This document shows, one piece after another, positions 1,828 through 41,741 of a stretch of DNA of 64,000 nucleotides. Under the pieces are notes generated by a model that was not told the origin of the DNA, did not search any database, and saw only the letters and a program-made list of their open reading frames with translations. Position numbers and translations under genes: made by a program. Source of the DNA: Acidobacteriota bacterium (GTDB lineage Bacteria > Acidobacteriota > Terriglobia > Terriglobales > Acidobacteriaceae); NCBI GenBank assembly GCA_021791875.1, contig JAJYVU010000008.1:1-64000 (forward strand), read 5' to 3'. The number at the start of each line of letters is the position of its first letter. Position 1 is the first letter of the stretch.

Positions 1828-3372
1828 ATGATGAGACTGCCCACTTTCATGACTGAACCTGTCTCTTCAGAAGCCATCACATCACCTGTTTCGCGGACTC
1901 CTTCGCCGCGGGCCGAGATGACCGCACGCGCCATTGTCATCGCCATTGCTTATTCCGTGATTGGCATCGTCGCAGTTCGCAGCGTGCCGGGGATCGACAT
2001 CGACCAGTGGTGGCATATGAGCGCCGCAAGGTGGATGTTGCATCATCACGCATTCCCGCAGGTGGCCATTTACTCGGGCCTGCATCCGCAGCCTGTGTGG
2101 CACGACTACAGCTGGCTCTACGACCTGATGATGTACAAGCTCTACCGGTCTTTCGGGCTGGCAGGGATTCTGGCTTACATCACGGCGATGGTGCTCGCCA
2201 TTCTGACTGCTCTGCATCGCATTACCGGTCGAGTGCAGGCGGATTTTCTGCCGGCGATGGTGGTGGCCGTTGCGGGAATTTTGAGCATGACGCCGCTGTA
2301 TACGCCGCGATCCTGGCTCTTCTCCATATTATTCTTTGTCATCCAGCTGGATGTGCTGCATCGCGCACGGAGCAGCGGACGGTGGCAGACTCTGCTGTGG
2401 CTGCTGCCGCTCTACGCGCTGTGGGCCAATATCCACATCCAGTTCATGGATGGGCTGGTGGTGCTGGGTGCGACGGCCTGTGAGCCGTTGTTCATGCGCC
2501 TTTGGCCGTGGCCGGAGAAGCCGCCGCTGCCGGCAGGCAAATTGTTTGCTATTCTTGGCGGCTGCATCGGGGCGACATGGATCAATCCCTACGGATGGAG
2601 CTTGTATTTTTCCGCCTACAAGCTGGTTTCTGAGCGCGTGGTCTTCAATCACGTAGAGGAACTGCTGGCTATCCCCTTCCGCATCTGGGAGAACTATCTC
2701 TTTCTGGCCCTGGTTGTGGCCGCGGCAGTCGCGCTTGCCCGGCGACAGAAGCCCGACCTGTGGCGATGGATGCTGTTTGCCGGAGGGCTGATTATCTCCT
2801 TCCGTTCGGGGCGGGATATCTGGTTTTTGACGGCCATTGCGGTCATGATTCTGGCCGAGGGGCTGTCTTCCAAGGCTGTCTCCGCGCCGCTGCGCCCGCT
2901 GCCGAAACTGGCTCGTCCGGTCATCGCGGTGGTGGTGATCCTGGTTACGTTTGCCTCCGCGCGGGTGATGGGCATCGACAAGACCTACCTCAAGAAATAC
3001 GAGTACCTGGCTATGCCGGTGAGGGCCGTGGATGCGGTGATGGAGAAGGGCTACCCCGGTCCGATTTTCAATAACTACGAATGGGGTGGATATCTGATCT
3101 GGCGGATGCGGAAGCCGGTGTCGATTGATGGCAGGGCGGCCGTGTATGGCGGGGAACGCTTCAAGCGAACCCTTGACACCTGGATGGGCGAGCCAGTCTG
3201 GACCAGCAACCCACAGCTGAAGGCAGCCAACCTGGTGATTGGCCCAGTGAACGATGCGCTGACGCAGTTATTGCGAGAGGATCCGGATTTCCGGATGGTC
3301 TACCGGGACAAGGTTGCAGCGGTGTTTGTACGGAATACGACCGCTAAGGCCGCTCAGGCAAAGAAGAACTGA
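1828..3372 (+). CDS. Polytopic membrane protein, GT-C-like, function unknown
   Basis: The 514-residue protein has about ten hydrophobic segments from about residue 37 to 385, followed by a soluble C-terminal region of roughly 130 residues. The first loop contains PGIDIDQWWHMSAARWML and a following HDYSWLYD, an acidic-rich first loop like that of GT-C membrane glycosyltransferases, and WANIHIQF occurs near residue 200. This pattern is common among uncharacterised acidobacterial membrane proteins. A polyprenyl-phosphate-sugar-dependent transferase role is inferred only. Two in-frame ATGs lie at 1828 and 1831 and a third at 1849, so the start is uncertain. The next gene, nagA, converges on it. 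Confidence 0.6.
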   Translation: MMRLPTFMTEPVSSEAITSPVSRTPSPRAEMTARAIVIAIAYSVIGIVAVRSVPGIDIDQWWHMSAARWMLHHHAFPQVAIYSGLHPQPVWHDYSWLYDLMMYKLYRSFGLAGILAYITAMVLAILTALHRITGRVQADFLPAMVVAVAGILSMTPLYTPRSWLFSILFFVIQLDVLHRARSSGRWQTLLWLLPLYALWANIHIQFMDGLVVLGATACEPLFMRLWPWPEKPPLPAGKLFAILGGCIGATWINPYGWSLYFSAYKLVSERVVFNHVEELLAIPFRIWENYLFLALVVAAAVALARRQKPDLWRWMLFAGGLIISFRSGRDIWFLTAIAVMILAEGLSSKAVSAPLRPLPKLARPVIAVVVILVTFASARVMGIDKTYLKKYEYLAMPVRAVDAVMEKGYPGPIFNNYEWGGYLIWRMRKPVSIDGRAAVYGGERFKRTLDTWMGEPVWTSNPQLKAANLVIGPVNDALTQLLREDPDFRMVYRDKVAAVFVRNTTAKAAQAKKN

Positions 3373-3414
3373 GCCGTCGCTCTCGGTTGTTCTCGGAAGA
3401 AGAACGGGGCGGAT

Positions 3415-4572
3415 TTACGCGGCGATTTGCGGTGCTCCGCGCAGGAAGGTCTGGATAACCGTCCGCTCAGGGGAGAGGATTACAAAATCCGCGCTTCGGC
3501 CTGCGGCGATGTCGCCGATCTTATCGTCAAGGCCAAGCATGCGCGCCGGGTTGCGAGTGGCCAGGGGCATCACCTCGGCGAGCGCGGCTCCCGTAAATGC
3601 AGCGAAGTTGCGCAGGCCGGTGTCCAGCGTGAGTGTGCTGCCGGCCAGGGTGTTTTCTTCAATCAGGCAGACGCCGCCCTCGACGCGGACATCCAGTTCG
3701 CCCAGCTTGTAGGGGCCATCGGGCATGCCGGCGGCGCTCATGGCGTCGGTGATCAGGATGCCACGCTCGCGCCCTTTCATTTTCCAGTAGATGCGGACCG
3801 CGGTTGGCTCGACGTGCAGGCCGTCGCAGATCAGCTCGGCGAAGAGGCCGTCGTTGGTGAGCACCTCGCCGACGAGTCCCGGTTCGCGGTGATCGAAGGT
3901 GCGCATGGCGTTGAAGGTATGCGTGGCAGAGGCAGCGCCGAGTTGCACGCCCTTTCTGGCTTCGGCGAGGGTTGCGTTGCTGTGCCCCAGGCTCACGCGG
4001 ATACCCAGCTCGACGGCCCGCGCGATGGTTTCATCGGCTCCGGGCAGTTCGGGCGCAATGGTGAGCAACCGTACCTGGCCCTCGGCAGCCTGCCACATTT
4101 GGTTGAGCAGCTTGACGGAGGGTTTCTGCAGCAGTCGTTCCGGGTGGGCGCCGCGCTTGTGCGGCGAAAGGAATGGGCCCTCCAGATGGATGCCGACAGG
4201 CTGAGCGCCGAGCTGGGGGCGGCGCATTTCCAGAGCCAGCCCCTCCAGCGAGCGCAGGGTCATGTCCATGTCTGCAGAGACGGTGGTCGCCAGGTAAGCT
4301 CCGACGCCATGGCGGGCGAGGAAGCCGCCAATCGTTGCCAGTGCCTGCGGCGTGGCTTCCATGATGTCGTGCCCGGCGCTGCCATGAATATGAACGTCAA
4401 AGAGCGCGGGCAGGATGGTTGCTCCGGGAAAGTCGAGCACCTCGCCGTTGGGCAGAGACGCTGCGTCGGCCTGGCCAATTTCTGTTACTGCGCCATCTTC
4501 CACAACGACAAACGGATCTTCGATGGCTCGCTGTGCCGTCAACAATTGTGCTGCTCTCACTACCGTCCGCAT
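3415..4572 (-). CDS. nagA: N-acetylglucosamine-6-phosphate deacetylase
   Basis: The 385-residue amidohydrolase removes acetate from GlcNAc 6-phosphate to give glucosamine 6-phosphate, feeding amino-sugar breakdown or peptidoglycan recycling. Seen motifs are HIHG (61-64), the HLEGPFLSPHKRGAH block (129-143, metal ligand Glu131), His197 in SLGHSNA, His218, His253 in DGLHVEP and catalytic Asp276 in LITDAMSA. Length fits the family. It is divergent from the endonuclease IV gene at 4710. No nagB or transport gene lies nearby, so a dedicated nag operon is not present here. Confidence 0.93.
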   Translation of the reverse strand: MRTVVRAAQLLTAQRAIEDPFVVVEDGAVTEIGQADAASLPNGEVLDFPGATILPALFDVHIHGSAGHDIMEATPQALATIGGFLARHGVGAYLATTVSADMDMTLRSLEGLALEMRRPQLGAQPVGIHLEGPFLSPHKRGAHPERLLQKPSVKLLNQMWQAAEGQVRLLTIAPELPGADETIARAVELGIRVSLGHSNATLAEARKGVQLGAASATHTFNAMRTFDHREPGLVGEVLTNDGLFAELICDGLHVEPTAVRIYWKMKGRERGILITDAMSAAGMPDGPYKLGELDVRVEGGVCLIEENTLAGSTLTLDTGLRNFAAFTGAALAEVMPLATRNPARMLGLDDKIGDIAAGRSADFVILSPERTVIQTFLRGAPQIAA

Positions 4573-4709
4573 AACACTCTGACTCTACACTGTTACAGCG
4601 TGTTTCATATAGAGTTCTGCAGACGATTGATTTCGCGGGTCGGGCGCGTTGGCGCGTTCCATGCAATTCATCCCCGGCAGGCGGGCGGTTTTGAAGCACG
4701 TTCCAAGGA

Positions 4710-5570
4710 ATGACTGTGCGCAGAATTGGTATTCATCTTTCGACCACGGGCGGCTATTACAAGGCCGCTGAGCGCGCCCATGAAATCGGCGCAAACACCG
4801 TTCAGATTTTTTCTTCCAGCCCGCGCATGTGGCGCTCGCCCAGCGTGAAGCCGGAAGATGCCGCAAAACTGAAGGAAACATGCCGCAAATACGATTGCGA
4901 GCCGGTGGTGATTCACGTCAGCTACCTGGTGAACGTGTGCAGCCAGTCGGAGGACGTTCGCGCCAAATCCGTAGTTGCGTTTCGCGGCGAAGTGGAACGC
5001 GCCCTCGCACTTGGTGCGCGCTACCTGGTCCTGCATCCCGGTTCGTGGAAGGGAATGACGCGCGATGAGGGGCTTGCGCTGGCGGCGGAATCCATCGCAA
5101 AAGCCACGGAAGGCATCGATTTTTCCGGCAAGGACTTCCAAATCTTGATTGAAAACACCGCTGGAGCCGAGTTTTCCCTGGGCGGCAGCTTCGAGCAGGT
5201 GGGCGAGCTGGTGGCGCGGCTCAGGCCGGTTGTGCCAGTGGGCGTGTGCCTCGACACCTGCCACTGCCACGTGGCGGGCTACGACATTGTCAGCTCCGAA
5301 GGCTATGAGGAGACGGTGGCGCTGATCCAGAAAACCATCGGACTGGAAACGGTGCGGGTGTGGCACATGAACGACGCCAAGGCGCCGCGCGGGTCGAAGC
5401 TGGACCGGCACGAGCATATCGGTGAGGGAACCATCGGCGCCGAGCCGTTCCGGCGGCTGCTTCACGACGCCCGCTTTGCCCACTGCGCCTTCATTGCGGA
5501 AACACCGCTCGATGAGGAGGCGGATGACGCGCGCAATGTGGCGGCGCTGCGGGGGCTCGCCGCAGGCTGA
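4710..5570 (+). CDS. nfo: Endonuclease IV (AP endonuclease, deoxyribonuclease IV)
   Basis: The 286-residue TIM-barrel enzyme cleaves DNA 5' of abasic sites in base-excision repair. All nine expected trinuclear-zinc ligands can be placed: His69, His109, Glu148, Asp182, His185, His219, Asp232, His234 and Glu264, in motifs such as VLHPGSW, LIENTAG, CLDTCHCH and DRHEHIG. Length matches the family. The gene is followed 51 bp later by leuS on the same strand. The ATG at 4710 gives the usual N-terminus starting shortly before the first beta strand (RIGIHLS). Confidence 0.95.
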   Translation: MTVRRIGIHLSTTGGYYKAAERAHEIGANTVQIFSSSPRMWRSPSVKPEDAAKLKETCRKYDCEPVVIHVSYLVNVCSQSEDVRAKSVVAFRGEVERALALGARYLVLHPGSWKGMTRDEGLALAAESIAKATEGIDFSGKDFQILIENTAGAEFSLGGSFEQVGELVARLRPVVPVGVCLDTCHCHVAGYDIVSSEGYEETVALIQKTIGLETVRVWHMNDAKAPRGSKLDRHEHIGEGTIGAEPFRRLLHDARFAHCAFIAETPLDEEADDARNVAALRGLAAG

Positions 5571-5621
5571 AACGGGGGGAGTTGAGGGGATTTTCGGCTG
5601 GCCGCGAAGTTACAATCAAAG

Positions 5622-8282
5622 ATGACTATGGCTAAAGACAAGACCGAGAAAGCGGCCTCCACGGCGCCGACGGACGCTTCTCCGACATCGAACTTCGAGA
5701 CCCGTTACAACCCGGGTGAGATTGAGCCGCGCTGGCAGCAGCGCTGGGCTTCGCAGCCCGATCTTTACGCTGCCGAACCGGCGACCAGCCGCAAACCCAA
5801 GTACTACGTGCTGGAGATGCTGCCGTATCCGTCTGGCCAGCTGCACATGGGCCACGTGCGCAACTACGCCATTGGCGACGCGCTCGCCCGCTACATGTGG
5901 ATGCAGGGCTACAACGTGCTGCACCCGATGGGCTGGGACGCATTCGGTCTGCCGGCTGAGAACGCGGCGCTGAAGAACAATACACCGCCGCGCGAGTGGA
6001 CGCTCTCAAACATCGCCGCCATGCACAAGCAGATGGACCGGCTTGGGCTGAGCTACGACTGGCGCAACGAGGTGACCACCTGCCTGCCCGAGTATTATCG
6101 CTGGAACCAGTGGTTCTTTTTGCGCATGTATGAGCGCGGCCTTGCCTACCGCAAGCAGAGCAAGGTGAACTGGTGCCCGCAGTGCGCGACAGTGCTGGCG
6201 AATGAGCAGGTAGTGGACGGCTGCTGCTGGCGGCATGAAGATCAGCCGGTGGAGCAGCGCGACCTGGAGCAGTGGTTTTTGCGCACGACGAACTATGCGC
6301 AGGAATTGCTGGATGGCCTGGACGAACTGGAAGGCTGGCCCGAAAAGGTGCGCACCATGCAGCGCAACTGGATCGGCCGCAGTGAAGGCGCCGAGGTCGA
6401 GTTTGCTGTGGAGGACAGCGCGTCGGTTCCTGAAGATGAGCTGCACCAGCGCCACGCCGGGACGGCTATTCTGCCAGTGCGTGAGGATGTAAAAGCCGGT
6501 CCACACAAGATTCGCGTATTTACCACCCGCATTGATACGATTTACGGCGCCACGAGCCTGCAGCTTGCACCCGAGCATGCGCTGGTGAAGGAGTTCTGCG
6601 CAAGCGACGAGAAGCTTGCGAAAGAAGTGGACGCACTGCTGGAACAGCAGCGTAGTGCCAAGGAAACCGGCGACGTGGGCGGAATTGAGAAACATGGTGT
6701 CTTCACCGGCCACTACGCGATCAATCCATTCAACGGCGAGCGGTTGCCCATCTGGGTCGGCAACTACATCCTGGCGGACTACGGCACGGGCGCGATCATG
6801 TCAGTGCCTGCGCACGATGAGCGCGACTACGAATTCGCCAGGAAGTACGGGTTGGAGATACGGATCGTCATCCTGCCGCGGCGCCCGGAAGATCCGGCGC
6901 CGGATGGCGAGCCGGACGAGCCGATTCTGCCTTTTACTGACGAGCAGAGCATCCTGATCAACTCCGGCGAATTTGACATGCTCGGCTGCGAAGAAGCGCA
7001 GCACAAAATGGCCGAGTACGCCGAGCAGCATGGCTTTGGCAAGGCGCAGGTGACGTATCGGCTTAAGGATTGGGGCATCAGCCGCCAGCGCTACTGGGGC
7101 ACGCCCATTCCGATGCTGTACTGCGAAAAAGATGGTATCGTGCCGGTTCCGGATGACCAGTTGCCCGTGCTGTTGCCCGGGAACGTGGAAATTACGCAGC
7201 AGGGCGGGTCGCCGCTGGCGAAGCTGAAAGAATTTGTAACTGCTACGTGCCCAAAATGCGGCGGACCCGCGCGGCGCGAGACGGATACGATGGACACCTT
7301 CGTCGATTCGTCGTGGTATTTCTACCGCTATACGAGCGCACGAAACGACAAGGCTCCATTTGATACCGATACGGTTGCGTACTGGTTTCCGATCGACCAG
7401 TACATCGGCGGCGTGGAGCACGCCATCCTGCATTTGATCTATTCGCGCTTCTGGACGAAGGTGATGCGCGACCTGGGCCTGGTGAAAAATGACGAGCCGG
7501 CGCAGCGGCTGTTTACGCAGGGCATGGTGATCAAGAACGGCGCCAAGATGTCGAAGTCGAAGGGCAATGTGGTGTCGCCCGAAGACATGATTTCGCGCTA
7601 CGGCGCCGACGCCACGCGCATGTATGCGCTGTTTGCCGCGCCGCCCGATCGCGACCTGGACTGGCAGGAAGACGGCGTGGCCGGAGTCAGCCGCTTTCTC
7701 TCGCGTGTGTACCGGGTGGTGATGCGGTATGTCGAGCGTGCCAGAGCCGCCAGCGGCAAGGTGGAAGCAAGGACCGCCGCAGAGCAGGCGCTGCTGCGCA
7801 AGCTGCACCAGACGGTTCGAAAGATCACGGAAGATTTTGGCGGGCGCTGGCATTTCAACACCTGCATTGCCGCCATCATGGAACTGGTGAACGCCATCAC
7901 CGGTGCAGAAGGAGCCATTCAGAGCGGGGAAGTTTCCGATGCCGTTGTCGCCGACCTGATGAAGAATCTCGTGCTGTTGCTGCAGCCTTTCGCGCCATAT
8001 CTGGCGTGTGAGCTGTGGGAGCAGCTGGGAGAGCCGGACAACCTGTTGCGCGCCGCATGGCCGAAGTTTGACGAGGGGCTTGCGCGCGAAGATGAGATCG
8101 AGATTCCCGTGCAGGTGAACGGCAAGCTGCGCTCCGTGATTCGCGTGGCTGCCGGCGCCGGGGAAGAAGCGCTGCGCGATGCAGCGATGGCGGATGAAAA
8201 AGTAACCGCATCGATTACAGGAAAACAGGTGATCAAGGTCATCATTGTTCCGGCCAAGCTGGTGAATCTTGTGGTGCGCTAA
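5622..8282 (+). CDS. leuS: Leucyl-tRNA synthetase
   Basis: The 886-residue class I synthetase charges tRNA-Leu. The HIGH-type motif is HMGH at 75-78, after PYPSGQL, and the KMSKS motif lies at about 642-646 followed by [12 protein letters not shown]1 editing domain fills the middle, with the TTRIDT and [15 protein letters not shown] editing motifs. A C-terminal anticodon-binding domain ends in a ubiquitin-like tail. Length is typical for bacteria; an extra Ala/Thr-rich tail of about 25 residues precedes the core. ATGs at 5622 and 5628 are both possible starts. The stop is 9 bp before the next membrane-protein gene. Confidence 0.97.
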
Positions 8283-25410: not shown

Positions 25411-25974
25411 ATGCCCAGTTCGCCGCAAGACCTTCGTATCTCATCCCGCACGGAACCAGCGGAAGGGTACGCCCAGGATGAGGTTCATGGCGACAAATGG
25501 CTGGTCCTGATTGGCGTCCTCAAGCTCGTCAAGGGATTCCTGTTCATTCTTCTGGGCGTCGGAGCGCTGCGCCTGCTGCATCGCGACCTGGTTGGTTTCC
25601 TGGCCCACTGGATTGTGGTAGTCCTGCGTTTCGATCCGGAAAGTCATGCCGTCAACTTCATCCTGGCCAAGGCTGCGCTCATCCATCCCCGCGAGCTCAG
25701 GATGTTGAGTGCGGGTATCTTTCTCTACGCCGCGCTGGATCTGGTGGAAGGCACAGGGCTTGTCCTGGAAAAAGTGTGGGCCGAGTACGTCACGCTGTTC
25801 ATAACGGCCGCGTTTCTGCCCTGGGAGTTCTACGAGCTGATCCGTCACTTCTCCCTGTTCAAGATCGGGCTGGTGCTCGCTAACGTCCTCATTGTGCTCT
25901 ACCTGTTGTGGTTAGTGCAGGCGCAGGCCCGGCGCCGCATGACCCGCCTGGTTCACCGGAAGTCTCGCGAATAG
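25411..25974 (+). CDS. DUF2127 membrane protein
   Basis: The 187-residue protein has about four membrane segments (near residues 33-52, 66-76, 104-120 and 150-167). It shows the DUF2127 pattern: GVLKLVKGFLFILLGVGALRL near the start, then LSAGIFLYAALDLVEGTGL and a central FLPWEFYELIRHFS. The function of this family is not established. It is divergent from the TPR gene and precedes the mraZ promoter region; a small inverted repeat at about 25999-26016 follows the gene. Confidence 0.75.
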   Translation: MPSSPQDLRISSRTEPAEGYAQDEVHGDKWLVLIGVLKLVKGFLFILLGVGALRLLHRDLVGFLAHWIVVVLRFDPESHAVNFILAKAALIHPRELRMLSAGIFLYAALDLVEGTGLVLEKVWAEYVTLFITAAFLPWEFYELIRHFSLFKIGLVLANVLIVLYLLWLVQAQARRRMTRLVHRKSRE

Positions 25975-26303
25975 GCTTGTATTTCTGAATTGCAAGCCCT
26001 TTTGCGGGCAAAAGGAACCAGAAGAGTTAACCGCAACATCTTGCGGTTTCCCGCTTTGCGCCCCTATGCATAGATTTCCCGATTTTGGTCTTCGCCAGTC
26101 CTTCGCCTTTTTGAGATTTCCACCGTAAGTATTTGATTTTTGGCGTTTGACATGGGGCGTAGCTGGGGTACGATGTGGACAAATGTGGTCAGAAGTGGAG
26201 CAGACCTCACGAGTTTTCGTAGAAAGACGATAACGGCAACAGAGTAGCAGTAATTTCAGCAATTTCACTTGGTTTTCTCCACATCGGATCAGGGTTATCA
26301 ACG
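25975..26303. other. Intergenic region carrying the dcw promoter
   Basis: The first part has a short perfect inverted repeat (CCTTTTGC / GCAAAAGG, 25999-26016) that may end the DUF2127 transcript. The second part holds the mraZ promoter and phased TGG repeats, described separately. Confidence 0.5.
26147..26200 (+). promoter_or_regulatory. Sigma-70-like promoter with phased TGG repeats (candidate MraZ operator)
   Basis: TTGACA at 26147-26152 and TACGAT at 26069+100 (26169-26174) are separated by 16 bp. Five TGG-starting pentamers lie at 26153 (TGGGG), 26164 (TGGGG), 26176 (TGGAC), 26186 (TGGTC) and 26196 (TGGAG), spaced 11, 12, 10 and 10 bp. E. coli MraZ is known to bind TGGGN repeats on a 10-bp period upstream of its own gene. 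The first two repeats fall between the promoter hexamers and the others overlap or follow the predicted start, a layout expected for autorepression. Confidence 0.65.
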
Positions 26304-26744
26304 ATGTTTCGCGGCAATCATCCAACCCGGGTCGATGAGAAAGGGCGCCTCAAGCTGCCGGCGGAATTCAAGCGCCGGATTGATGAGCAGTACGGCACCC
26401 AGTTCTACATCACCAGCAAGGATGGCAGGGTCGCGGAGATTTACCCACTGCAGGAGTGGGAAAAGATCGAGCAAAAGCTGGCTGCGATTCCCAGCATGAA
26501 TCCTGCAAAGAAGAAGTTTCTGGACCGGGTCAACTATTACGGCCAAGTCACTGAGATGGACGCGCAGGGCCGTGTTCTGCTGCCGCAGATCCTGCGCGAG
26601 GCGGCAAACGCTACCGGCGATGTGGTTGTGTTCGGCATGCAGACGTACCTCGAGGTCGCGAACCACGAGGCCTTCAAGCAGAACATGGAGCAGAACCCGC
26701 TCACCACGGAAGATGAGCAGGCGCTGGCAGATTTTGGATTGTAA
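26304..26744 (+). CDS. mraZ: Transcriptional regulator MraZ
   Basis: This 146-residue protein has two tandem AbrB-like domains, each with the DxxGRxxxP signature: DEKGRLKLP near residue 11 and DAQGRVLLP near residue 86. MraZ forms a ring and represses the dcw cluster by binding repeats upstream of itself. It is the first gene of the cluster, 20 bp before rsmH. Length fits the family (about 140-155). Confidence 0.95.
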   Translation: MFRGNHPTRVDEKGRLKLPAEFKRRIDEQYGTQFYITSKDGRVAEIYPLQEWEKIEQKLAAIPSMNPAKKKFLDRVNYYGQVTEMDAQGRVLLPQILREAANATGDVVVFGMQTYLEVANHEAFKQNMEQNPLTTEDEQALADFGL

Positions 26745-26764: not shown

Positions 26765-27658
26765 ATGGAGCGTGAGCGTCATGTGCCGGTTCTTTTACAG
26801 GATGCGATCCGTTACCTGAATGTGCGACGGGGCGGCGTCTATGCGGATGCCACCCTGGGACTCGCGGGGCACTCGACGGCCATAGCAAGACAGCTTGGTC
26901 CGGAAGGCACGCTGATCGCCTTTGACCGCGATCCGGAAGCCGTGAAACTGGCCCGGGAACGCATGGAGGCGCTGCGTGAGGAGCTCGGGCCGGAGATGCC
27001 GGCCGTGGTCCTGCATGACACCGAGTTCAGCGAGGCAGAAGCGCTGATTGAGCCAGCCAGCCTCGACGGTCTGCTGGCCGACTTCGGCGTCAGCTCGATG
27101 CAGTTTGACGAAGCGCACAGAGGATTCAGTTTTCAGGCGGAAGGCCCACTCGATATGCGGATGAATCCGCGGGAGGGGGTGACCGCCGCACAGGTGGTAA
27201 ACCAGTTCGGCGAAAAACAGCTCGCCGACCTGATTTACGAATTCGGAGAGGAAAGGAGGTCGCGGAGAATCGCCAGAGCCATTGTCCGGGCACGGCCGAT
27301 CAGCACTACCGCGCAGCTTGCGCGGGTTGTTTCGGCCGCTGCCCCGGCGATGAAATCGGAGCGAATTCATCCGGCGACGCGAACCTTTCAGGCGCTCCGA
27401 ATCTACGTGAACCAGGAACTGGGGCAAATCGAGGCGCTGCTGAAGGCGGCGCCCGCGCTTCTGAAGCCCGGTGGGCGGCTGGTGGTGATCAGCTTCCACT
27501 CCCTGGAAGACCGCATTGCGAAAGACGCGTTGCGGGAGGGGGCACGGCAGGGAATCTATGAAGTGTTAACGCGCAAGCCGGTCACGGCCAGCGCCGAGGA
27601 AATGGATCGCAACCCCCGCGCACGCAGCGCGAAACTGCGCGCCGCGGAACGCATATAG
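26765..27658 (+). CDS. rsmH: 16S rRNA m4C1402 methyltransferase RsmH
   Basis: The 297-residue protein methylates N4 of C1402 in 16S rRNA. The SAM-binding start reads DATLGLAGHSTAIA, slightly different from the common GGGGHS, and IAFDRDPEAV follows. Further signatures are LADFGVSSMQFDEAHRGFSF, GPLDMRMN and the late VVISFHSLEDRIAKD. GGGGGAG lies just upstream of the ATG. The second place in a dcw cluster is the usual one. Confidence 0.95.
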   Translation: MERERHVPVLLQDAIRYLNVRRGGVYADATLGLAGHSTAIARQLGPEGTLIAFDRDPEAVKLARERMEALREELGPEMPAVVLHDTEFSEAEALIEPASLDGLLADFGVSSMQFDEAHRGFSFQAEGPLDMRMNPREGVTAAQVVNQFGEKQLADLIYEFGEERRSRRIARAIVRARPISTTAQLARVVSAAAPAMKSERIHPATRTFQALRIYVNQELGQIEALLKAAPALLKPGGRLVVISFHSLEDRIAKDALREGARQGIYEVLTRKPVTASAEEMDRNPRARSAKLRAAERI

Positions 27659-37503: not shown

Positions 37504-38283
37504 ATGAGCGGAAGCGAGCACAAGGAAGAGATTCTCGATCAGTTCACGCGGCAGGCCGCGCAATTTGCGCAGTCGGCCACGGCCCGCGATGAAGAGCTGC
37601 TGCGCACGATTCTCCGCATGGCCGAGCCGCAGCCGCGGGACGCGATGCTGGACGTCGCCTGCGGTCCGGGCATGCTGGTGTGCGCGTTTGCTCCGCAGGT
37701 GCGGCATGCCACCGGGATTGATCTGACGCCCGCCATGCTCGACCAGGCGCGCGCCGCGCAAGATGCGCAGGGCCTTGCGAATATTTCCTGGGATTGCGGC
37801 GATGTGACGGCTCTGCCGTATCAGGACGGCAGTTTCAACATCGTGACCTGCCGCTACGCATTTCATCACTTTCCTGATCCGTTGGCCGTGCTCACGGAGA
37901 TGCGGCGCGTCTGCGCTCCCGGCGGGCGCGTGGTTGTGGTCGACAGCGCACCTGAGGCGGGAAAGGCTGCTGCCTTCAATGCGATGGAGAAGCTGCGCGA
38001 CCCGTCGCACACGCGCGCCCTGCCGCGCGAGGAACTAGCCGCGCTCTATGCGGAAGTGGGCTTGCCCGCGCCGCGCGTCGAGCACTTCCGGCTGGAGCTG
38101 GATCTCGAATCCTTCCTGGCGCGTTCGTATCCCCGCGAGGGCGATGAAGTGCGCCTCAGGGCTGTTTTTGAATCGGCGCTGGTTGAAGACATGCTTGATT
38201 TGCAGCCGCGCCAGGTGGACGGCAAAATTTTCTTCGCGGTCCCGACCGCGATTCTTTCGGCACGGATCCCCCATGCAGCATGA
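37504..38283 (+). CDS. Class I SAM-dependent methyltransferase (UbiE-like), substrate unknown
   Basis: The 259-residue protein has motif I LDVACGPGML (about 49-58), an acidic end of strand 2 in GIDLTPAMLDQA and the post-motif CRYAFHHFPDP, all of the UbiE/MenG-like methyltransferase type. It sits between ftsW (8 bp upstream) and murG, overlapping murG by 11 bp, so it is made with the peptidoglycan enzymes. The C-terminal 80 residues show no motif for a known substrate. Placement suggests a lipid, quinone or precursor substrate, but nothing in the sequence decides this. Confidence 0.75.
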   Translation: MSGSEHKEEILDQFTRQAAQFAQSATARDEELLRTILRMAEPQPRDAMLDVACGPGMLVCAFAPQVRHATGIDLTPAMLDQARAAQDAQGLANISWDCGDVTALPYQDGSFNIVTCRYAFHHFPDPLAVLTEMRRVCAPGGRVVVVDSAPEAGKAAAFNAMEKLRDPSHTRALPREELAALYAEVGLPAPRVEHFRLELDLESFLARSYPREGDEVRLRAVFESALVEDMLDLQPRQVDGKIFFAVPTAILSARIPHAA

Positions 38284-39376
38284 TTCCAAGTCCGCATTGC
38301 GGGTGGTCATTGCGGGAGGCGGCACCGGCGGCCACATTATTCCCGCCATCGCTATCGCGCGCCAGCTTCAGGCAGGCGGACCGGCAGAGCTTCTGTTTCT
38401 CGGCACGCCGCGCGGGCTTGAGTCTCGGCTGGTTCCGCAGGCGGGTTTTCCGCTCACATTGATCAAGGTGGGCCAGCTCAACAACGTTTCGCTGCTCACG
38501 CGTGCACGCACGCTCGTGGACCTGCCGCTGAGCATCGGGCGCTGTGTTGCGTTGCTGCGCCGCTTTCAACCGAATGTTGTGATCGGCGTCGGCGGGTATG
38601 CCTCCGGTCCGGCCATGCTGGCCGCACAGCTGCTGCGGATTCCCACGCTTGCTTTTGAGCCTAACGCCGTGCCGGGACTCGCCAACCGCCTGGTTGGCAA
38701 ACGCGTAGCCGCCGCGGCCGTCAACTTTGCGCCCGCCGCGGCTTACTTCCGCAACGCGCAGGTGACTGGCATCCCCGTGCGCGACGAGTTCTTTCATCTG
38801 GCGGAGCGCCCGGCGTCTGACACGGCGCAACACCCGCACCTGCTCGTTTTCGGCGGCAGCCAGGGTGCGCGCGTGCTCAACAACACGCTGCCGCAGATCA
38901 TCTCGGGGCTTCTCGCCACCGTGCCGGGACTGACTGTCCTGCACCAGGCCGGCGCGCGCCACGCCGAGGCTACGCAGGCTGCTTACGCGGCTACCGGCGC
39001 AGATCCTGCCCGCTGGCAGGTGCATGCGTTTCTCGATGACATGCCCGCCCGGTTCGCGGCTGCCGATCTCATCCTGGCGCGCAGCGGAGCCAGCACTGTC
39101 GCTGAACTGGCCGCTGCCGGCAAGCCCGCAGTGCTCGTTCCGTTTCCGCAGGCAGCAGACGATCACCAGCGCAAAAATGCCGAGGTAATGGCCGAAGCCG
39201 GCGCTGCCGTGATGATTCTCGAAGCCGAACTCACCCCGGACCGCCTTTGCCGCGAACTGGCGCAGTTGCTCGCCTCACCGGAGGAGTTATCCGCTATGTC
39301 CGCGCGCGCCCGCACGCTGGCGCATGTGGATGCGGCCGAAGTCATCGCACGGATGGTCCGCCGCATCGCGCGCTAG
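38273..39376 (+). CDS. murG: Lipid II synthase MurG
   Basis: The 367-residue GT28 enzyme transfers GlcNAc to lipid I at the inner face of the membrane. GGGTGGH lies at 15-21, VIGVGGYASGP and FEPNAVPGLANR follow, and the C-terminal donor site reads LILARSGASTVAELAAAGKP and PFPQAADDHQRKNA. The ATG at 38273 was chosen over the long upstream frame (38048) because that frame runs through the methyltransferase gene. A terminator follows at 39401-39427. Confidence 0.95.
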   Translation: MQHDSKSALRVVIAGGGTGGHIIPAIAIARQLQAGGPAELLFLGTPRGLESRLVPQAGFPLTLIKVGQLNNVSLLTRARTLVDLPLSIGRCVALLRRFQPNVVIGVGGYASGPAMLAAQLLRIPTLAFEPNAVPGLANRLVGKRVAAAAVNFAPAAAYFRNAQVTGIPVRDEFFHLAERPASDTAQHPHLLVFGGSQGARVLNNTLPQIISGLLATVPGLTVLHQAGARHAEATQAAYAATGADPARWQVHAFLDDMPARFAAADLILARSGASTVAELAAAGKPAVLVPFPQAADDHQRKNAEVMAEAGAAVMILEAELTPDRLCRELAQLLASPEELSAMSARARTLAHVDAAEVIARMVRRIAR

Positions 39377-39400: not shown

Positions 39401-39427
39401 AAAACAGCCCCTGCATTCGCAGGGGCT
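39401..39427 (-). terminator. Terminator between murG and the Gly-rich gene
   Basis: AGCCCCTGC and GCAGGGGCT form a perfect 9-bp stem with loop ATTC. On the minus strand it is followed by GTTTTTTG, a clear U-tract, so it ends the Gly-rich gene; on the plus strand it may also weakly end the murG transcript. Confidence 0.75.
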
Positions 39428-39447
39428 GCTTTGCTGTTTGCAGGAGA

Positions 39448-40293
39448 CTACCGTCCGTGGCCGCCGCCGTGGAAACCGCCACCGTGGAAGCCACCGCCGC
39501 CATGGAAGCCGCCGCCATGGAAACCACCACCGTGGAAGCCACCGCCGCCATGGAAGCCGCCGCCACCGTGGAAGCCACCGCCATGGAAACCGCCCATGGG
39601 CCGCATTCCGCCGCTACGGATGCCACCAAAGCGAGGTCCGCCGCCAAAGTTGCGAGCGGGGCCTACGCCACCGAAGTTCGAAACCGTATGGAAGCCGTGA
39701 TTGTAGCCAAAGGCGCGCTGCGGGCCTCCATGGAATCCGCCGTAGCCCTGTCGGAAGTTGTTTCCAGCCACCATGTGGCCACCACGGAACCCACCGCCTC
39801 CGCGGTAGTTCCCTGGGCGACCGCCAAAATATGTGCCGCCACGGCCGCCACCGTAATACCGCGCGCGGTCACCCCAGCCGCCACGCCAACCGTCGCCGTA
39901 GCCGCCGCGCCAACCGTCGCCGTAGCCGCCCCAGCCGTCACCGTCCCAGAAGCCCTGACCGTACCAGCCGTAGTAGCCCATGTCATCGAATCCCCATCCC
40001 CAGGGGCGTCCATACCAGCCGCGGAACCACGGTCCAGCACCGATGAACACGCCGTTATCAAACCAGTCGGCTCCATAGTAGCCATAGGGCGCGCATGAGT
40101 AGGGGTAGTAGGAGTAGTAGCCATACTCGCAGACCGGCGGCCCATAGACCGCTACTGGCGCCGGGTATCCATAAACGGGCCCAATGCCGATTGCGACTGA
40201 GAGCTGCGCCTGTGCCGGTTGCACCATGGCCAGCGGAGCAGACAGAAGCGCGATTACAAACGTTGTTCGCAGTAGAGAGCGCCATCTGCGCAT
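39448..40293 (-). CDS. Secreted Gly/His/Tyr-rich repeat protein
   Basis: The 281-residue protein begins with a signal peptide (about residues 1-30, ending PAQAQ). A Tyr/Pro-rich region (YGYYSYYPYS, then WFRGWYGRPWGW) leads to Gly/Arg segments (GYGDGWRGG repeated) and a C-terminal block of tandem GGFHGGG repeats from about residue 232 to the end. The ATG at 40293 was preferred to 40461 because it opens the signal peptide. Such proteins are structural, adhesive or metal-binding (His) candidates; no family was recognised. It is on the minus strand inside the dcw cluster. Confidence 0.7.
   Translation of the reverse strand: MRRWRSLLRTTFVIALLSAPLAMVQPAQAQLSVAIGIGPVYGYPAPVAVYGPPVCEYGYYSYYPYSCAPYGYYGADWFDNGVFIGAGPWFRGWYGRPWGWGFDDMGYYGWYGQGFWDGDGWGGYGDGWRGGYGDGWRGGWGDRARYYGGGRGGTYFGGRPGNYRGGGGFRGGHMVAGNNFRQGYGGFHGGPQRAFGYNHGFHTVSNFGGVGPARNFGGGPRFGGIRSGGMRPMGGFHGGGFHGGGGFHGGGGFHGGGFHGGGFHGGGGFHGGGFHGGGHGR
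39456..39600. repeat. Tandem coding repeats of the Gly-rich protein
   Basis: Units of 12-18 bases alternate GGCGGCGG- and TTCCATGG/TTCCACGG-like blocks on the minus strand, encoding repeated GGFH(G)n. Codons within the repeats are nearly identical, so replication slippage can change copy number. Confidence 0.7.
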
Positions 40294-40586
40294 CGTGATC
40301 CTCCCGCCAGAGTCTTGGTCAGTGTCTGGCCTGCTTCTGGCTACCTTCAGGTAAGCAATTTGCTTGCCTGCTCTGCATTTATAAACGGGGCAAACCCATA
40401 AAAGTTGCGAAAAACTCGCTCGCTGGCCGGGCTGCTCCAGATTTTCAATCAGTTGCCGCACGTTTTTGCTCCGAGTGGCACTGTTTTGTTCATCTTTCCT
40501 TCATCTTGCGTCGCTTCCAGTTACGACAACGTACCCGCGAGTTGCCGGGTGCGCTGGTCTGCGTTTGCCAGCAGCCTGATCTTTCC

Positions 40587-41033
40587 TTAGTGACGGCCGC
40601 CGCGGCCATTGCGGTAACTGTTCCGGCCATTCTGGCGGTTGTCGTTTCTGCGATTGTTGCGGCCATAGTTGCGGTTCTCATTCCGGCCATAATTGCCGCG
40701 GCCGAAATTGGCATTGCCATCGTTACGGCTATAGCTGCCGTAGTTGGCGTACCGGCTGTTAAAGCGGGCGTTGCGATCTCCGTAGCGATCCTGGCGCTGG
40801 TAGCGGAAATCCGTGCGATACACCCATTGGCCCGGCATCCACTGCGTCCCGCTGTAGTAGCCGTTCACCCACATGTAGCCAGGGCCGGGGCTCGGCGACA
40901 TGTAGTTGGCAACCACTGCGGCAACCGGGGTTCCAAATTGAACCATGATTCTTGTCTGCGCCTGGGCGGCCATGGCGGCTCCGCTTAAAAGCCCCGTCAG
41001 AACGAATGCGCTCAGTAGTCGATAGAGTTTCAT
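40587..41033 (-). CDS. Small secreted Gly/Asn/Arg-rich protein, paralog 1
   Basis: This 148-residue protein has a signal peptide (1-26, ending AQAQ), then a short conserved core SPGPGYMWVNGYYSGTQWMPGQWVYR (within about 45-72) and a low-complexity tail of Arg, Asn, Gly and Tyr. The WxxGYY/WxPGxW core resembles YXWGXW-type repeats in secreted proteins. GAAGGAGG lies upstream of the ATG at 41033. It is a paralog of the gene at 41346-41741, sharing the signal peptide, the core and the 5' leader. Its function is unknown. Confidence 0.72.
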   Translation of the reverse strand: MKLYRLLSAFVLTGLLSGAAMAAQAQTRIMVQFGTPVAAVVANYMSPSPGPGYMWVNGYYSGTQWMPGQWVYRTDFRYQRQDRYGDRNARFNSRYANYGSYSRNDGNANFGRGNYGRNENRNYGRNNRRNDNRQNGRNSYRNGRGGRH

Positions 41034-41345
41034 GATGAGACCTCCTTCGGGTTTCCCCATTTTGTCTCTGCATGTTTGAGTAGCTGGAGAGAAATAGGCC
41101 GCAATTAATTTGAAAATACCTTTGTAATTAAGATTATCTTCAGGTAAGTATCGGAAAAGCCAGAAAATACGGCAATTCAGGAGGATTCTGTGTGACCTTA
41201 AGTTTCACTTAATGATAAGTCAAAAGCTATATGCGAGTAAGTGGCTGCTTGTTGAGGGGCCGAGTTGTGCTTGGGCCGGCCGCAACAAAAAACGCACCCG
41301 GATTGCTCCGGGTGCGCTCCTGCGGTATCGCCGATGCCGCTGGAA
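41034..41345. other. Gap between the two paralogs
   Basis: It holds the shared 5' leader of paralog 1 (about 41034-41080), an AT-rich stretch that should contain its promoter, a 15-bp palindrome TTAAGTTTCACTTAA at 41198-41212, and the terminator of paralog 2 at 41287-41316. Confidence 0.5.
41287..41316 (-). terminator. Intrinsic terminator of paralog 2
   Basis: A 10-bp stem (CGCACCCGGA / TCCGGGTGCG) with loop TTGC is followed on the minus strand by TTTTTTGTTG. Confidence 0.82.
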
Positions 41346-41741
41346 TTAGTGGTCATGTCCACGGCCACGTCCCCATCCGCGGTGCCAGCCGTTGTCATGA
41401 TGGTCTTCGCCTCCCCAGCCACGGCCGCGCCAGCCATCTTCGCCGCGCCATCCGCGGTCGCCGCCGTAATAGCCGTTTCCGTAGTAACCGTAGCCGCCGC
41501 CGTAATAGCCCTCGTCATCGCCGCGGCGAGCCCAATAGCCCTGCACCCAGTAAGGGCCGTTGTAATAGCCTGAGATCCAGACATAACCCGGGCCCGGGCA
41601 GGGCGGAGCGTAGTATTGCGCTGCCATCGCAGGGCCACTTCCGAAGCCAAAGAAGATTCGCGTCTGGGCCTGGGCAACCATAGTAGCTCCGCTCAAGAGA
41701 CCAACAAGAACGAACGTGGAAAGCACTCGATTGAGTTTCAT
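41346..41741 (-). CDS. Small secreted Gly/Tyr/His-rich protein, paralog 2
   Basis: The 131-residue protein has a signal peptide (1-26, ending AQAQ) nearly identical to paralog 1, then the core CPGPGYVWISGYYNGPYWVQGYW and a tail rich in Gly, Tyr, Trp, Asp and His (GYYGGGYGYYGNGYYGG, then GWGRGRGHDH). GGAGG precedes the ATG at 41741. The sharing of signal sequence, core and 5' leader with the gene at 40587 indicates a tandem duplication followed by tail divergence. It ends at a strong terminator. Confidence 0.72.
   Translation of the reverse strand: MKLNRVLSTFVLVGLLSGATMVAQAQTRIFFGFGSGPAMAAQYYAPPCPGPGYVWISGYYNGPYWVQGYWARRGDDEGYYGGGYGYYGNGYYGGDRGWRGEDGWRGRGWGGEDHHDNGWHRGWGRGRGHDH

Follow-up and report, generated by a model that had tools for sequence, protein, structure and literature searches.

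An array of three GTGG boxes, set one helical turn apart, adjoins the −10 element of a sigma-70 promoter upstream of mraZ in the 64,000-nucleotide stretch of acidobacterial DNA analyzed here (the window). From sequence comparisons, we put at about 90% the probability that this is an operator for MraZ at the dcw promoter, which would serve mraZ, rsmH and, as the layout permits, the genes down to murG under negative feedback. The features are as follows:

26147–26152, + strand: −35 element TTGACA; a −35-like hexamer (at least 4/6 letters) lies at the same offset in 91/116 family-type loci
26153–26155, + strand: TGG, the first repeat of the first-pass annotation; spacer sequence, off-phase and unconserved (1/116 loci)
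26165–26168, + strand: GGGG in 10-bp phase 5' of box 1, from a one-mismatch match; possible degenerate extra box or plain promoter spacer
26169–26174, + strand: −10 element TACGAT, adjoining the first predicted MraZ box; a TA...T hexamer abuts the array in 91/116 loci
26175–26178, + strand: predicted MraZ box 1, GTGG (sequence, conservation)
26185–26188, + strand: predicted MraZ box 2, GTGG (sequence, conservation)
26195–26198, + strand: predicted MraZ box 3, GTGG (sequence, conservation)
26199–26303, + strand: untranslated leader from the array to mraZ, without the upstream ORF found in relatives (Rfam, fold and frame checks)
26304–26744, + strand: mraZ, with two MraZ domains and the loops DEKGR and DAQGR
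26765–27658, + strand: rsmH (mraW), first gene downstream (TIGR00006, 315 bits)
39405–39428, + strand: terminator-like hairpin past murG, with a 10-bp stem and a T-rich tail

The promoter proposed in the first-pass annotation was confirmed at 26147–26174, and most relatives share its geometry. TTGACA-N16-TACGAT, with 16 bp between the hexamers, is the sole sigma-70-like site in 25900–26400 (0.2 expected). As in the window, 91 of the 116 anchored family-type loci have a −35-like hexamer whose first base is at −28 relative to box 1, and the register of promoter and array is fixed in 91/116 anchored loci. Transcription would start near 26181.

The operator sequence is GTGG-N6-GTGG-N6-GTGG (26175–26198), in exact 10-bp steps. 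Its exact 24-mer pattern occurs once in the window; allowing up to one mismatch gave two matches against 0.33 expected, the second (26165–26188) being the same array entered from the degenerate GGGG at 26165. The exact triple is also rare at genome scale: three were counted in the 4.17-Mb genome to which the window belongs, and the two others both lie within long ORFs. A search with a TGGG-led pattern found no match at the promoter. The first-pass annotation had described five phased TGG repeats in a degenerate operator. All five TGGs are present, starting at 26153, 26164, 26176, 26186 and 26196, but the steps between them are 11, 12, 10 and 10, regular spacing is confined to the last three, and the 12 core letters of this three-box array are all intact. 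The two upstream copies are rare: a TGG occurs at the offset of 26153 (−22 from the first box) in 1/116 family-type loci and at that of 26164 (−11) in 4/116, the window's own locus included in both counts.

These figures bear on whether the operator has five boxes, with the two upstream TGGs making extra MraZ contacts within the promoter spacer. We consider this improbable, since the 11- and 12-bp steps fall out of the 10-bp register, the upstream TGGs recur in very few loci, and relatives carry their extra boxes downstream instead (21 bp past box 3 in 72/116), where the window has none. In favor of five boxes, the GGGG at 26165 keeps the 10-bp phase of box 1, a same-genus locus (L031) has GGGG at the same place, and four repeats are reported for the MraZ of Burkholderia cenocepacia (PMC7761207). 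The GGGG at 26165–26168 may be a weak contact and was not counted as a box.

To score conservation of the three-box operator, the 400 nt upstream of each locus were searched for the closest match to three GTGG cores with a 10-bp period, the maximum being 12 letters. A MraZ search of the window's own genome and 119 relatives gave a match in 114/120, own genome included. Upstream DNA was taken for the own locus and 89 relatives, of which 88 loci were parsed and two were unparsable; 24 matching relatives were left out. Within this class set (n = 88, own included), 56 loci scored 12/12, 28 scored 11, three scored 10 and one scored 8. Scores of at least 11/12 were thus found in 84/88 upstream regions, compared to 4/4400 dinucleotide shuffles; no shuffle scored 12. 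The period was specific: at periods of 8, 9 and 11–14, at most 2/88 loci had at least 11 letters. In a wider-phylum set of 75 loci, 17 of them unparsed, 37 of the 58 parsed loci had at least 11/12; the 58 include one rsmH locus, L123. Periods other than 10 did not give this result. Of the 57 parsed mraZ loci in the set, 20 scored below 11/12, some of them perhaps because of wrongly chosen starts. For a family-type set, 80 named loci were added, and 16 duplicates, two incomplete loci and 32 loci with non-MF starts were removed from the resulting 168; at least 11/12 letters were present in 116 of the 118 distinct loci that remained. The upstream-region comparison across Acidobacteriota that had been suggested therefore found the array kept throughout the class and in most of the sampled phylum, and an argument against the operator from unconserved repeats does not arise.

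Some relatives differ in the DNA past the array. The downstream GTGG of 72/116 relatives lies at +41 from the first box, two turns (21 bp) past box 3, and 55/116 loci have a GTGG at +72 that is in part the GTG start of an upstream ORF. One class member (L089) has seven 10-bp units past its −10 box, comprising two GTGG, three GCGG and further degenerate copies; this MraZ-like array is much longer than the others.

In relatives, anything between 20 and 310 nt separates the array from the start codon, which links its position to the promoter rather than to the start codon. This also speaks against repeats that arose by chance or that serve another function, e.g., in the promoter or a leader RNA: a strict 10-bp DNA period is kept while the remaining leader varies, 11 of 12 letters occurred in only 4/4400 shuffles, and the array is not seen in genomes that lack mraZ. 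In keeping with such an origin, the window sequence has many TGG triplets, and array and promoter always occur together; even so, we regard it as very unlikely. An RNA element in the leader (26199–26303) was rejected as a separate candidate on the lack of any Rfam match and on a fold that was not unusual (z = −0.80).

The protein encoded downstream is a MraZ. It has two MraZ domains (PF02381, 85 bits, cut-off 23), scores under the TIGR00242 equivalog cut-off (86.5 vs. 98.35), and has MraZ structures (1n0e and others) as its closest solved relatives. Both DxxGR loops are kept, and D11, K13, G14 and R15 are invariant in 20 aligned proteins. Nine genomes of the phylum gave no Pfam MraZ match, and rsmH was found in eight of these. 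In all seven readable MraZ-less genomes, the array is missing upstream of rsmH, with scores of 7 to 9 that correspond to chance level. One genome without a Pfam match (G097) is not a MraZ-less case, since it has MraZ-like motifs and scores 11/12 at its rsmH locus. Two genomes with divergent MraZ proteins and weak matches (G104 and G089) score 12/12. Because the array is conserved at mraZ and rsmH has none upstream in the MraZ-less genomes, these data are best read as autoregulation by MraZ. Separately, in some phylum members (L125, L126, L127 and L167, of G140, G152, G182 and G176), four Pfam MraZ matches that cluster on one contig suggest tandem mraZ copies.

The operator is of a known and ordinary kind, an E. 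coli-type three-box site. The E. coli mraZ1p operator is said, in papers that cite the 2014 work of Eraso et al., to consist of TGGGN repeats. E. coli K-12 MG1655, like the window, has GTGG-N6-GTGG-N6-GTGG with a 10-bp period, placed after a sigma-70 promoter and before mraZ; the boxes number three in both, with identical spacing, and the idea that the window has more repeats than E. coli falls away. The two sites differ in placement. By our own reading, the first E. coli box lies 7 nt past the −10 hexamer TAAACT, whereas that of the window abuts the −10 element, which brings its array about one turn nearer the promoter. The MraZ box of Mollicutes is given as (AAAGTGKN3)3 in PMC5282649 and PMC8475190. 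It resembles AAAGTGG, the consensus of boxes 2 and 3 across 80 anchored loci; however, the window boxes are preceded by GAT, AAT and GAA, making the A-run imperfect. In B. cenocepacia, MraZ is reported to bind GTG-core repeats near the −10 element (PMC7761207). That promoter, PmraBc, also has GTG cores with a 10-bp period downstream of the −10 element and over the start site, with a leader of about 100 nt, but its repeats number four compared to three in the window. Literature searches on mraZ in Acidobacteriota and on MraZ binding sites returned no study of an Acidobacteriota operator among the matches listed. The window thus extends the E. coli-type MraZ operator to Acidobacteriota with every box matched, which supports the view that feedback on the cell-division cluster is ancient and widely retained.

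By analogy with these systems, MraZ would bind the array and repress by binding. The sigma-70 promoter TTGACA-16-TACGAT would drive mraZ, rsmH and, as the layout permits, the genes down to murG. The three GTGG cores, one helical turn (10 bp) apart on one DNA face, would extend from the downstream edge of the −10 element to about +18. MraZ is a ring-shaped oligomer, with an octamer cited in PMC7761207, and the ring could contact three successive major-groove faces, one turn apart. Bound MraZ would then lie over the start site as well as the edge of the −10 element and hinder initiation, closing a negative feedback loop. Autorepression is therefore a plausible outcome, and two reports state that the MraZ proteins of E. 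coli and Mycoplasma genitalium repress (PMC7761207, PMC8475190). The site could instead be a real MraZ site at which MraZ activates or tunes the promoter. In Neisseria elongata, mraZ deletion is reported to have lowered, and overexpression to have raised, the expression of dcw genes (PMC9395523). Against activation stand the repression recorded in the other two species and the boxes themselves, which abut the −10 element and sit downstream of it in a position suited to steric repression, and we judge activation unlikely. As for further MraZ targets, a search of the own genome for pairs of AAAGTGG gave 16 matches compared to 43 for the reversed control, and we therefore make no claim of a regulon.

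Autoregulation by MraZ would probably reach only part of the cluster. Downstream of mraZ come rsmH and then the usual dcw genes, with murG ending at 39376. The terminator-like hairpin follows, and then three opposite-strand ORFs of 131 to 337 codons (39448–41741) without a Pfam match, before murC, ftsQ, ftsA and ftsZ. The first-pass annotation had predicted control of the whole dcw cluster; the hairpin and the opposite-strand ORFs between murG and murC argue against this by their layout. Because they precede murC-ftsQ-ftsA-ftsZ, the promoter probably serves mraZ to murG and not ftsA-ftsZ, and the transcript would end after murG. Both the box count and the reach of the promoter are thus corrected. 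Three details of this region were also seen: judging by the N-termini, two of the three ORFs in the murG-murC gap seem to encode small secreted proteins; a class I methyltransferase gene (37504–38283) lies between ftsW and murG; and the listed start of the murG ORF (38048) overlaps this gene, so that the true start is probably further in.

The leader of relatives holds a second feature, which is more surprising than the operator itself. In relatives (loci L195–L274 and L003–L068), an ORF of the leader in the +1 frame starts about 45 codons upstream of mraZ and continues into it (e.g., L196, 1368–1904, + strand). The window has no such ORF: its +1 frame lacks a start codon after the upstream stop and is closed by a further stop at codon 10 of mraZ. 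We grouped loci by the upstream part of the ORF alone (at least 36 codons, start codon downstream of the array) and set aside grouping by frame openness as circular. By this definition, 86/118 family-type loci carry the upstream +1-frame ORF, and 82 of these 86 have no +1 stop in the first 96 mraZ codons, compared to 2.5 expected from synonymous shuffles; kinship of the loci inflates these and all other overlapping-frame counts. In the third frame of the same loci, there were 3.02 stops against 3.15 expected. The avoidance of stops weakens around codon 134, which is where a large number of these ORFs terminate.

The same pattern appeared at risky sites, i.e., pyrimidine third positions where T gives a +1-frame stop. 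In mraZ of the ORF loci, T was found at 7/1028 risky sites compared to 1139/2742 elsewhere. The corresponding values were 332/1756 and 2346/5409 in the rsmH control (51 of the same loci), and 63/307 and 275/748 in mraZ of 24 loci without the ORF. By parsimony on a tree, C-T changes numbered five in 830 risky codons, compared to 329 in 2295 safe codons. The upstream part of the ORF shows moderate purifying selection: across 28 loci, single differences comprised 1718 that were synonymous and 2521 that were non-synonymous, compared to 2829 to 8188 expected at random.

Constraint on the amino acids encoded within the overlap was not found (0.586 observed vs. 0.581 permuted), and loci without the ORF gave a similar gap in the same test (0.416 and 0.408). 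Four-fold divergence of mraZ was not below that of rsmH (0.425 vs. 0.354). The predicted structure of the overlap product is poor (mean pLDDT 50) and mostly disordered, with one helix at residues 17–36, and the product had no Pfam, NCBIfam or PHROGs match. A literature search on mraZ with overlapping genes or alternative frames gave no paper mentioning mraZ among the matches listed.

Taken on sequence evidence, we lean towards the view that the mraZ message is dual-coded in the window's own family (Terriglobales; Candidatus Sulfotelmatobacter and related MAGs). The second ORF would begin about 45 codons upstream, usually with GTG and a GAGG-like ribosome site, and selection would keep it free of stops for about 97 to 135 mraZ codons. 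It would either yield an overlapping protein of about 180 residues or couple the translation of mraZ to the passage of a ribosome reading the second frame. The genus of the window lacks this ORF or has lost it. If true, this would be a long same-strand overlapping frame on a core, highly conserved bacterial gene with its openness under selection, making it a rare and testable case. Two codons of mraZ are also frozen in the ORF-bearing relatives: codon 3 is fixed as CGC (88/88), and the third position of aligned codon 46 is fixed as T (76/77 valine codons), while both vary in loci without the ORF. These frozen codons may be a signal at the RNA level or of dual coding.
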